Assembly: GCA_017403185.1 (NCBI GenBank)
Contig: JAFQON010000006.1
Coordinates: 1-64,000 of the forward strand
Length of the DNA: 64,000 nucleotides
Direction of reading: 5' to 3'
Source: Clostridia bacterium
GTDB lineage: Bacteria > Bacillota > Clostridia > Oscillospirales > Acutalibacteraceae
The position numbers were made by a program, and so were the translations under genes. The notes under the pieces are model-generated. The model was given only the letters and a program-made list of their open reading frames with translations, had not been told where the DNA came from and did no database searches. Positions 25,177-64,000 of the stretch are shown piece by piece. Within the stretch, counting starts at the first letter, position 1. Every line of letters begins with the position of its first letter.

Positions 25177-25251
25177 GCCTCCTTAGTTAAATGGATATAA
25201 CAGGCCCCTCCTAAGGGTCAGTTGTGAGTTCGATTCTCGCAGGGGGTGCCA
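25177..25251 (+). tRNA. tRNA-Arg (anticodon CCT)
   Basis: The 75 bases fold as a complete tRNA. Acceptor arms GCCTCCT / AGGGGGT, D stem GTTA / TAAC, anticodon stem GGCCC / GGGTC with loop CTCCTAA (anticodon CCT, reading AGG), and T stem GTGAG / CTCGC with loop TTCGATT. A G discriminator and an encoded CCA follow. It has its own promoter and terminator. Confidence 0.95.
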
Positions 25252-62371: not shown

Positions 62372-63115
62372 TTATTTTATACCTTTATATATATAATACG
62401 GCTTGCTGAATATATAACTTCCGTCGCTCTGCGCCTGTTTCAGATTACCGATAAATTCTTTGTATTCCTCTTCGCTTAATGCACCTGTGTTCTCTTCAAA
62501 AAGCCATGCGATATCCTTGCTCAGCTCATAGCCGAAGGTGCCTTCTTTATATTCTGTTTCAACCACATTATGAACGCTCACTGTGCTTTCAAACAGCTTG
62601 CTTTTATTGAAAATTCCGTGCATCCTTCTGCCAATCCAGCTGTCAAGGTCATCCATCCAAGGCTGCTTTGTCACAGCATAAGCGTGAACAGCCTTTGAAA
62701 TCAGCTCTTTGTTTTCGCCGTTATATGCAACGCTGTCCCAGTCACAGTTAACGCAAATCACAGTTCCGCCCGGCTTCAGAATCCTGTGAATCTCCCTGAC
62801 AAGAAAAGCCTTGTCCGATACGCATTCAAACATATCCTTGGTAAAAACAAAATCGAATGTATCATCGGCAAACTCAAGCTTCTCCGAGCAATTCATCACC
62901 TTGAGAATAATCGGCTTTTTATATTTAACATTCTTAAAGCCCTTGTCGTTTATATCAACACCTACGGCTGATTTGATTTTGCCCGGAAAAGCCTGCTGTA
63001 ATTTCACAAGAAAGCCCGCATCACGGCAGCCCAAATCCGCAACAACCGCATTATCGGGCAAGCTGATTTGTTCAAAAATTTCTTTGACTAACGATGAATA
63101 TTTATTACTGTTCAT
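62372..63115 (-). CDS. class I SAM-dependent methyltransferase with attenuator-type leader
   Basis: 247 aa. Motif I is VVADLGCRDAGFLVKL, followed by SAVGVDINDKGF (acidic loop), ADDTFDFVFTKDMFECV and REIHRILKPGGTVICVNCDWD. This is a methyltransf_11/25 core, with a helical C-terminal part (about 150-247) that probably binds the substrate. The substrate is unknown; it has no Erm or RlmA signature that I can recognise. It has AGGAGGTAA at ideal spacing. The 190-base leader contains an 11-codon ORF ending in five arginines and an intrinsic terminator 18 bases before the ribosome site. That arrangement suggests expression induced by ribosome stalling. Confidence 0.88.
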   Translation of the reverse strand: MNSNKYSSLVKEIFEQISLPDNAVVADLGCRDAGFLVKLQQAFPGKIKSAVGVDINDKGFKNVKYKKPIILKVMNCSEKLEFADDTFDFVFTKDMFECVSDKAFLVREIHRILKPGGTVICVNCDWDSVAYNGENKELISKAVHAYAVTKQPWMDDLDSWIGRRMHGIFNKSKLFESTVSVHNVVETEYKEGTFGYELSKDIAWLFEENTGALSEEEYKEFIGNLKQAQSDGSYIFSKPYYIYKGIK

Positions 63116-63130
63116 TTGATATTACCTCCT

Positions 63131-63171
63131 GAATAAAAATTACTGTTAACAGCTGTATGCCGTTAACAGTA
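63131..63171 (-). terminator. leader (attenuator) terminator of the methyltransferase gene
   Basis: On the minus strand TACTGTTAAC (63171-63162) and GTTAACAGTA (63150-63141) form a perfect 10-bp stem with an 11-nt loop, followed by ATTTTTATT. It lies between the leader ORF and the methyltransferase, 18 bases ahead of the ribosome site. Confidence 0.82.
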
Positions 63172-63189
63172 AAACAAAAGGCAAACTTT

Positions 63190-63273
63190 TCTCTGTCACT
63201 CCGTCGGGCACACAGCATTTAAGGCCTGTACCCTGATAAGATACAAGCTATCTTCGTCTGCGTCGAACAGAGA
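63190..63273 (-). other. structured leader region of the methyltransferase mRNA
   Basis: TCTCTGT (minus, 63273-63267), within the leader ORF, can pair with ACAGAGA (63196-63190). Inside that helix are AGATA-GCTTG-TATCT, overlapping the leader stop codon, and a GGGTACAG ... CTGTGTGCCC hairpin. A ribosome on the arginine codons would break the outer and first inner helices. Confidence 0.5.
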
Positions 63274-63283
63274 TAAAGAACAT
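63248..63283 (-). CDS. leader peptide MFFISVRRRRR (11 aa)
   Basis: A short ORF with GGAGGA eight bases before its ATG at 63283, ending TAG at 63250-63248. It encodes MFFISV followed by five arginines (CGA CGC AGA CGA AGA). It is too short for ORF callers. Its strong ribosome site, the Arg run at the end, and the terminator downstream match leader peptides that sense ribosome stalling. Macrolides are known to arrest translation at (R/K)-x-(R/K) motifs, several of which overlap here. Arginine-tRNA shortage is an alternative signal. Confidence 0.72.
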   Translation of the reverse strand: MFFISVRRRRR

Positions 63284-63312
63284 ACCGAATTCCTCCATTG
63301 AAATTTTAGGTT

Positions 63313-63341
63313 ATTATACTTCAAAGCAGGCAAAAATGCAA
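63313..63341 (-). promoter_or_regulatory. promoter of the methyltransferase leader transcript
   Basis: Minus-strand TTGCAT (63341-63336), 17 nt, TATAAT (63318-63313). The -10 is perfect and the -35 moderate. It lies 30 bases ahead of the leader-peptide start. Confidence 0.65.
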
Positions 63342-63357
63342 GGGTTATTTTGCTGCG

Positions 63358-64000
63358 CTATCTATCCAAATCGCTTAAAATCTGATTAATTTGCTGAATA
63401 TCAATCTTTCTTTTATCGCCCTTAACAGCAACCGTCATATTTGATGTTTTGAATATTTCATTTGCCGCTTGCATAATCTGCTGTTTGCTGATACCGTTAA
63501 GCCTTCCGAATTTTTCATCAGAAAAATCAATCGGTTCTGTTTCTAAAATATAATTGTAATATCCTATACTCCAATTTAGATTATCAATATTATCAGCCGT
63601 CTTTTTCCATGATGCCAACTCGCTCTGAAGGTTTGCTTCAAAATTAAAATCACCTGTTTTCAGCCTTTTAAGCGTTTTTACAATATTTTCAAATGCTTCA
63701 GGCAAGCATTCATCAGCAACTTCAAACCTGACAGAAATGTTGCTCACATCATTATACTGCTCATAAACGGGATCATATGAATAAATAAGCGGGCTGTCTT
63801 CTGACAGAAAACGGTAAAACAACGCCTTGTCACCTTTAAACAAGACAGCATAAATCAGATCATGAACTCCGCCTTTGTATTTTGCTGTTTCCACATCAAA
63901 ACCTATCTTCACATAATGCCAATAATCTTGTTTTACCAATAATTCTGTGCTTCTGTTGAAAAACCTTTCTGTATTTTTCACTTTGTTTTCAAAGAAACTT
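63358..64000 (-). CDS. M16-family peptidase, C-terminal part (5' part beyond window)
   Basis: The reading frame is open to the right edge, so the true start is outside. The visible 213 residues look like the C-terminal domain of insulinase-like (M16) metallopeptidases: VKNTERFFNRSTELLVKQDYWHYVKIGFDVE, GGVHDLIYAVLFKGDKALFYRFLSEDSPLIYSYDPVYEQYNDVSNISVRFEVA, and the final FGRLNGISKQQIMQAANEIFKTSNMTVAVKGDKRKIDIQQI. M16 proteins have an N-terminal HxxEH zinc site, not visible here, and a structurally similar second half. It may also be an inactive partner subunit. A 242-base gap to the methyltransferase gene holds that gene's promoter and leader. Confidence 0.75.
   Translation of the reverse strand, partial: SFFENKVKNTERFFNRSTELLVKQDYWHYVKIGFDVETAKYKGGVHDLIYAVLFKGDKALFYRFLSEDSPLIYSYDPVYEQYNDVSNISVRFEVADECLPEAFENIVKTLKRLKTGDFNFEANLQSELASWKKTADNIDNLNWSIGYYNYILETEPIDFSDEKFGRLNGISKQQIMQAANEIFKTSNMTVAVKGDKRKIDIQQINQILSDLDR

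Follow-up and report, generated by a model that had tools for sequence, protein, structure and literature searches.

A putative arginine-codon transcription attenuator ahead of a SAM-dependent methyltransferase gene in Clostridia

The minus strand of the window (the whole 64,000-nt stretch of DNA analyzed here) carries a SAM-dependent methyltransferase gene together with an upstream RNA that, judged from its sequence and folding, is very likely a trp/his-type transcription attenuator that depends on the ribosome, sensing the charging of tRNA-Arg and controlling the methyltransferase gene. In the modeled mechanism, a leader without a ribosome would pair its ORF with a downstream segment (1') and its Arg codons with part of segment 3, and the terminator would form. 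When Arg-tRNA is charged, translation would continue to the stop codon, where the ribosome would lie over segment 2, allowing helix 2':3 and again the terminator to form. When Arg-tRNA is short, the ribosome would wait at the start of the Arg run, its A site occupied by Arg-1 or Arg-2 (the first or second Arg codon), blocking segment 1 and leaving segment 2 free; helix 2:2' would then form, followed by 3:4, and the terminator would be broken, an outcome modeled for a little over half of the leaders. As a tentative hypothesis, the methyltransferase may answer whatever lowers Arg-tRNA charging.

The sequence-only reading had listed a promoter, a ribosome-binding site, an 11-codon ORF ending in five arginines, helices overlapping this ORF, an intrinsic terminator, an AGGAGGT and a methyltransferase, and all of these are present in the minus-strand sequence. 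A promoter-like TTGCAT-17 nt-TATAAT lies at 63313-63341 (TATAAT at 63318-63313), with a perfect -10 box and a -35 box (TTGCAT) that matches only 3 of 6 consensus positions, which is why the promoter is missing from a consensus scan; a TATAAT-like box at the equivalent place is visible in many relatives. The Shine-Dalgarno sequence GGAGG (63292-63296) precedes the leader ORF MFFISVRRRRR (63248-63283), whose 11 codons are ATG TTC TTT ATC TCT GTT followed by the putative sensing codons CGA CGC AGA CGA AGA (63251-63265) and the stop codon TAG. About 75 nt of helix-forming sequence separate the leader ORF from the intrinsic terminator (stem-loop at 63140-63172, U-rich tail at 63131-63139), for which the terminator scan gives 14 pairs and then a ATTTTTATT tail, a longer stem than the 10 bp reported earlier. 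The Shine-Dalgarno sequence AGGAGGT (63124-63130) and the gene for a 247-aa methyltransferase with a class I fold (62372-63115; Pfam and fold model) follow. The leader strand folds at -62.6 kcal/mol compared with -43.3 ± 3.7 kcal/mol for shuffled sequences (z -5.3; 0/200 as low). A tRNA search of the window detected a single one, a tRNA-Arg (CCT) at 25177-25251.

Within the leader, several segments have alternative partners. Segment 1 (63263-63280) runs from leader codon 2 to Arg-1 and, according to own-versus-swapped pairing, would be the partner of segment 1' (63186-63205) when the ribosome is absent. Segment 2 (GCUUGUAUCU, 63239-63248), which overlaps the stop codon by its first base only, pairs in the predicted open state with segment 2' (GGGUACAGGC, 63224-63233), which in the closed state pairs with segment 3 (GCUGUGUGCC, 63207-63216). 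Segment 3 can also pair with segment 4 (GGCAUACAGC, 63152-63161), part of the terminator loop and inner stem, to form the putative antiterminator. These helices are mutually exclusive: 2:2' and 2':3 compete for 2', 2':3 and 3:4 compete for 3, and 3:4 and the terminator compete for the loop and inner stem. In the folds, CGCA of the Arg codons pairs with UGUG of segment 3, and the ORF start pairs with 1' downstream of segment 3.

One scan of genome contigs identified 29 methyltransferase loci, 54 to 83% identical, in Clostridia/Oscillospiraceae MAGs; the record titles of 21 name goat, sheep, cattle, deer or buffalo gut, seven name no host, and one locus is from Candidatus Onthovicinus excrementipullorum. 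Conservation of the leader ORF and its Arg run among homologs had been proposed as a check on the regulatory claim, and a leader ORF stands ahead of the methyltransferase in 28/28 loci with enough upstream DNA, the count leaving out L015, which has just 83 bases ahead of the methyltransferase start. GGAGG, GAGG or GGAG is visible ahead of the leader ORF in aligned relatives, and the short ORF with a Shine-Dalgarno sequence expected of an amino-acid attenuator is present by both sequence and conservation, its translation being putative. The leaders mostly read MFFIS/T-I/V-RRRRR, the outliers being MFSLIIRRRRQ (L040) and MTLSIIRCRRR (L039). In a set of 41 leaders that counts one sequence twice (L039 = L067), 26 leaders contain five Arg codons, 12 contain four, one contains three and two contain one; the Arg run of three to five codons is retained in 39/41 while the N terminus and ORF length vary, the pattern expected if the codon run is what an attenuator reads. 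CGA makes up 80 of the 183 Arg codons among the last six codons of these leaders and 23 of the 638 Arg codons (3.6%) in a set of 42 long ORFs from the window. The two single-Arg leaders, RHIH with CGA (L072, ahead of ArgS in genome G251) and RHIM with CGG (L068, ahead of a GNAT gene in genome G344), may have shifted in specificity.

Across 29 leaders, helices 2:2', 2':3 and 3:4 are paired in 99.7%, 100% and 98.6% of cells, respectively. The terminator, the conservation of which had likewise been put forward for checking, is paired in 99.4% of cells, with 4/12 pairs changed on both sides, and compensatory changes are few in 2:2' and 3:4 (one pair each). Swap tests on 17 divergent leaders gave -12.7 kcal/mol for ORF:1' with its own partner versus -8.6 kcal/mol with a swapped one (0/5000 permutations as low, L072 being an exception), and for 2:2' and 3:4 the permutations as low numbered 0/5000 and 1/5000. 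For 2':3, which is almost invariant, the test is weak (210/5000). The 3:4 swap test fails for L072 and L076, where the fixed test window excluded segment 4; a wider one gave -14.0 kcal/mol for L072 (1/500 shuffles as low) and only -8.6 kcal/mol for L076 (46/500). In the 64,000-nt window itself, 3:4 reaches -18.4 kcal/mol with 0/500 shuffles as low. The ArgS-linked leaders have wholly different terminator stems, and the loop still keeps a partner for segment 3, with 3:4 at -14.0 to -17.9 kcal/mol and at most 1/500 shuffles as low. Pairing counts, swap tests and shuffle tests together describe a terminator facing an exclusive antiterminator, as in amino-acid attenuators.

The distribution of the RNA was followed with a covariance model (R1) searched in whole genomes; the genome samples overlap, and stricter filters above 40 genomes lose weak matches. 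Within the genus, the RNA and a full-length methyltransferase occur in the same 7/45 genomes, protein matches at E 1e-3 being found in 11/45, of which the seven full-length ones show 77 to 100% identity and the others score 18 to 23 bits. Within the family, the RNA was detected in 25/398 genomes, in 23 ahead of the methyltransferase, in one ahead of the GNAT gene (L068, G344) and in one ahead of ArgS (L072, G251). The methyltransferase was found in 12/200 family genomes; R1 matched in 11 of these, and the remaining one, G214 (L118), has a diverged RNA copy of 24.9 bits. Flanking ORFs of at least 100 aa within 3 kb mostly differ between loci, the largest non-methyltransferase cluster comprising seven entries in 6/28 loci. 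Leader and methyltransferase co-occur amid different flanking genes and therefore appear to have been gained or lost jointly. This arrangement bears on the simplest alternative, that the terminator simply ends transcription of the upstream peptidase gene, lies beside a chance small ORF and regulates nothing. An M16-like gene does end close to the attenuator, at 63358, but leader ORF, helices and methyltransferase are conserved jointly where the flanks mostly differ, and 3:4 is kept despite different terminator stems, so that a chance ORF is scarcely credible.

The RNA also precedes genes of other kinds. Within the order it was found in 3/394 genomes, namely the window and two ArgS loci, L073 (G786, leader MFNSLSIRRRR) and L074 (G690, leader MNHFISLSTRRRR, which has an Arg run); a search of the family of G786 returned the same two genomes, G786 and G690, among 63. 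Within the class, 3/391 genomes matched, namely the window, L075 and L076. L075 (G1157, E 3e-4) was set aside as a chance match, the helix being present and no leader ORF seen. At L076 (G1126, 1501-1650) the leader MKIYKLNGNKHHHKI, containing His-His-His, lies ahead of a gene for a basic-amino-acid-type ABC binding protein, and this locus is likely a histidine version of the switch. A class-wide pattern search matched 8/381 genomes: the window; G1126 (L076) and G927 (L107), which belong to one genus and share an identical His-type core of the same architecture; and five others, around the level of a reversed-pattern control (at least four genomes among the matches listed). No methyltransferase ortholog was found in the genomes with the ArgS, GNAT or His versions (seven searched; best match 31 bits), and no R1 match was found upstream of ArgS in 15 methyltransferase genomes with at least 1.39 kb upstream each. 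Sixteen methyltransferase genomes have one ArgS each above the cut-off, G228 covering only 66 bases upstream of it.

The ArgS proteins of G786, G690 and G251, each taken over its full reading frame, all score above the TIGR00456 cut-off. They form one clade at 49 to 56% mutual identity; identity falls to 28 to 31% against the remaining ArgS detected in G786 and G690, and to about 24% against the ArgS of the window's family. In the genus of G786 an ordinary ArgS is present in 24/24 genomes and the second type also in 3/24; the third of these second-type genes (G610, L122) has a promoter-like site near its start and no attenuator. In G251, whose genome is 87% complete, no second ArgS was found above the cut-off. 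The second-type ArgRS proteins (L097, L098 and L096) carry the motif HLGDWGLPMGL versus HLGDWGTQFGK in the other ArgS of G786 and G690, possibly a changed active site. In the ArgS-linked copies, the downstream gene acts on the amino acid that the leader would sense, a further feature of amino-acid attenuators.

To model the effect of ribosome position, pairing was forbidden under a ribosome footprint and 39 distinct methyltransferase leaders were refolded. The terminator formed in 39/39 leaders with no ribosome and in 39/39 with the stop codon in the A site. With a footprint of -16..+11, 3:4 formed in 22/39 leaders with Arg-1 in the A site (17/39 staying terminated), in 24/39 at Arg-2, in 1/39 at Arg-3 and in none from Arg-4 onward; two open leaders at each of Arg-1 and Arg-2 also retain a hairpin where the terminator lies. 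With three alternative footprints, 19, 20 or 23 of the 39 leaders opened at Arg-1, 22, 2 or 6 at Arg-2 and 3, 0 or 0 at Arg-3. A ribosome one codon ahead of the Arg run already opened 16 to 18 of 39 leaders (16/39 with the -16..+11 footprint), and one placed five codons ahead opened 6/37. The modeled opening zone is centered on the start of the Arg run and is not confined there. Outside the methyltransferase group, the GNAT leader opened (1/1), the ArgS leaders opened in 1/3 and the His leader stayed closed (0/1). In these folds the position of the ribosome selects the state of the leader, as an amino-acid attenuator would require; because they are equilibrium folds, they support the logic of the switch and not its efficiency. 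Together with the conserved leader, the footprint folding supports the earlier proposal of a ribosome-dependent attenuator in which the Arg run would be the stalling site.

The methyltransferase matches Pfam Methyltransf_11 (E 9.9e-15), and Pfam shows methyltransferase domains only. The best 25 of 26 matched NCBIfam families all fall below cut-off with no Erm among them, and the description of the protein as not a recognizable Erm therefore holds for the Pfam and NCBIfam matches listed. Similarity to the 23S rRNA methyltransferase RlmA is weak (22 bits against an NCBIfam cut-off of 303; E 9e-4 to the RlmA structure 1p91) and does not exceed the similarity to UbiE, ArsM or phosphoethanolamine methyltransferases. 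A 2-ketoarginine methyltransferase (TIGR04543) was considered and rejected at 18.9 bits versus a cut-off of 425. The AlphaFold model is of moderate quality (pLDDT 73, with much higher values in its first half), and its best Foldseek matches, generic class I methyltransferases, are the peptide C-terminal methyltransferase LahSB, at the top, and a Methanosarcina methyltransferase, with TM scores of about 0.5 to 0.55; the Methanosarcina protein is matched at the sequence level as well (residues 7 to 236). The modeled structure fits a small-molecule or peptide enzyme, the matches being too weak to name a substrate, and the methyltransferase has no known link with arginine.

Macrolide-inducible leaders such as those of ermK, msrD and bmrC combine a short ORF and a terminator/antiterminator ahead of an accessory gene and respond to drug-dependent arrest of the nascent chain. 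The present RNA resembles them in short ORF, terminator/antiterminator and accessory gene; unlike it, they are not known to have an amino-acid codon run matched to an aminoacyl-tRNA synthetase gene. A macrolide, ketolide or other ribosome-targeting drug could accordingly be imagined to arrest the ribosome on the Arg run and open a resistance methyltransferase; the anatomy is that of leaders of this type (see also PMC4191407 and PMC10314930) and by itself would suit a drug-stalled ribosome equally well. The patchy occurrence of the methyltransferase (7/45 genus genomes) and its weak domain similarity to RlmA would also be in keeping with resistance. A Gram-positive relative of RlmA confers tylosin resistance, but the methyltransferase is no closer to RlmA than to the other enzymes named above. 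In macrolide-dependent +X+ (R-x-R) arrest, x occupies the P site and R/K the A site. Here this corresponds to Arg-3 in the A site, at which 36 to 39 of the 39 leaders fold closed, so that by folding the arrest motif is not at a position that opens the gene. ArgS genes sit behind the same RNA, and the His-run version lies ahead of a transporter gene. Sensing of macrolides or ketolides was rejected on the ArgS linkage and the A-site position, and ribosome drugs at large appear improbable as inducers.

The sequence-only reading had named a ribosome-targeting drug or a shortage of arginyl-tRNA as the inducer. The second half of that claim is favored by the same RNA standing ahead of ArgS in three genomes, two of them with Arg-run leaders, and by the His-run version. 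The first half finds no support: leaders mostly fold closed at Arg-3, and of the linked genes scanned (the window methyltransferase and five others) none reaches a curated ribosome-protection or rRNA-methylation model. We infer that arginine limitation would be the natural inducer, because an Arg run is what the leader holds and ArgS genes lie behind the same RNA.

Shortage of charged tRNA could also mean loss of the tRNA itself. Colicin D cuts tRNA-Arg, and the leader might sense destruction of tRNA-Arg by colicin D-type anticodon nucleases or other toxins, the methyltransferase modifying or protecting tRNA-Arg. The sensor would be unable to tell missing from uncharged tRNA, and a patchy gene with changing neighbors would suit a defense gene. 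Nevertheless, a spare ArgS is not obviously useful against tRNA cleavage, and the protein shows only Pfam methyltransferase domains, its best fold matches (from a moderate model, pLDDT 73) being small-molecule or peptide methyltransferases; we consider this explanation more improbable still than a ribosome drug. A match to part of the mad2 model at 39 bits was all that a search for membership in defense systems returned.

Returning to a sensor of Arg-tRNA charging, we speculated that the methyltransferase counters the cause of low charging, be it inhibition of ArgRS, an analogue of arginine or damaged tRNA-Arg, a tentative hypothesis. A wider and similarly doubtful possibility is that one such sensor RNA has been placed ahead of several protective genes (a distant second ArgRS, a GNAT and a new SAM methyltransferase family), forming an arginine counterpart of inducible synthetase-inhibitor resistance. 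One would then expect herbivore guts to contain a compound still to be discovered, either an analogue of arginine or one aimed at ArgRS, made by microbes or taken in with the host's plant diet, that the methyltransferase inactivates or renders harmless. The forage-plant arginine analogues canavanine and indospicine are possible triggers; PMC8226729, as far as its partial text goes, deals with the breakdown of indospicine by rumen bacteria. Were this protective reading true, the RNA would be a marker for genes answering attacks on arginine charging. Through the RNA, an uncharacterized methyltransferase family gains a likely physiological trigger, and the RNA is well defined and searchable.

In trp/his attenuators a leader ORF, alternating helices and an intrinsic terminator are combined, and a stalled ribosome opens the downstream genes. 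The present RNA shares these elements and the predicted opening by a stalled ribosome, and differs in its Arg codons, in the ORF:1' helix that in the model closes the untranslated leader, and in a downstream gene that is not biosynthetic. Vecchione and Sello (2010, cited in PMC4787780) reportedly described a ribosome-mediated attenuation of an auxiliary, indolmycin-resistant TrpRS gene in Streptomyces. The likeness to the ArgS-linked copies lies in a second, distinct synthetase under a leader peptide reading the charging of its own tRNA; that system concerns Trp and actinobacteria, whereas here it is Arg, clostridia and mostly a methyltransferase in place of the synthetase. A T-box was rejected, with no match to the Rfam T-box in the window and none at gathering score in 20 loci; more generally, only tRNAs reached gathering score in Rfam, the best other match being 15.6 bits, far below gathering.

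Leader-peptide attenuation was presented in 2010 as new to Firmicutes, with His leader peptides upstream of hisS paralogs in bacilli (Naville and Gautheret, partial text of PMC2965389). Those leaders resemble the present one as Firmicute runs of one codon, acting by transcription attenuation ahead of aminoacyl-tRNA synthetase paralogs; they concern histidine, bacilli and other genes, the likeness drawn here being one of architecture and gene context. Two leaders that read arginine are closer in what they sense. According to the available part of PMC6386406, pausing of the ribosome on consecutive Arg codons in the Salmonella orf34/speF leader refolds the RNA and favors downstream expression. 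Arginine sensing through adjacent Arg codons of a leader ORF, with a pause favoring the expressed state, is what is proposed here as well. That leader differs in having two Arg codons in a 34-codon ORF, in acting through Rho, masking of the RBS and RNase G decay, and in belonging to gammaproteobacteria, and as described there it works without the intrinsic terminator switch of the present RNA. In Staphylococcus aureus, the small leader ORF rbfL likewise reads arginine limitation through rare Arg codons, but it acts on translation initiation, represses, and is described without a terminator switch (partial text of PMC13009471). Thus the known arginine-sensing leader ORFs, as far as these two sources cover them, act via Rho, RBS masking and decay (speF, PMC6386406) or via translation (rbfL, PMC13009471). 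No arginine-specific attenuator with an intrinsic terminator was among the literature matches listed for attenuators, for leader peptides that concern arginine and for ArgRS duplication (the best 15 of 79 for one topic), and the strings MFFISVRRRRR, MFFISIRRRRR and MFFITIRRRRR did not occur in the literature searched for them.

Carriage of the methyltransferase on mobile elements was also considered. Plasmid or phage carriage gave no match by DNA and only relatives of 22 to 28% identity by protein (four plasmid records and one phage record), and a search for carriage on viral contigs found none. A repeat-like insert of about 65 nt (...CTTTGATTTCGT..TGGGTCGGGTTCT...) separates the terminator from the methyltransferase start in 3/28 readable loci (L017 at 1947-1973, L027 at 1331-1357 and L038 at 908-934) and in the truncated L015 (31-57), where it stands directly ahead of the methyltransferase start; the window is without it. 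The insert is also seen in L006, L007, L045, L046 and L054, which are copies of loci already listed, and it could be an extra regulatory step or a small mobile repeat.
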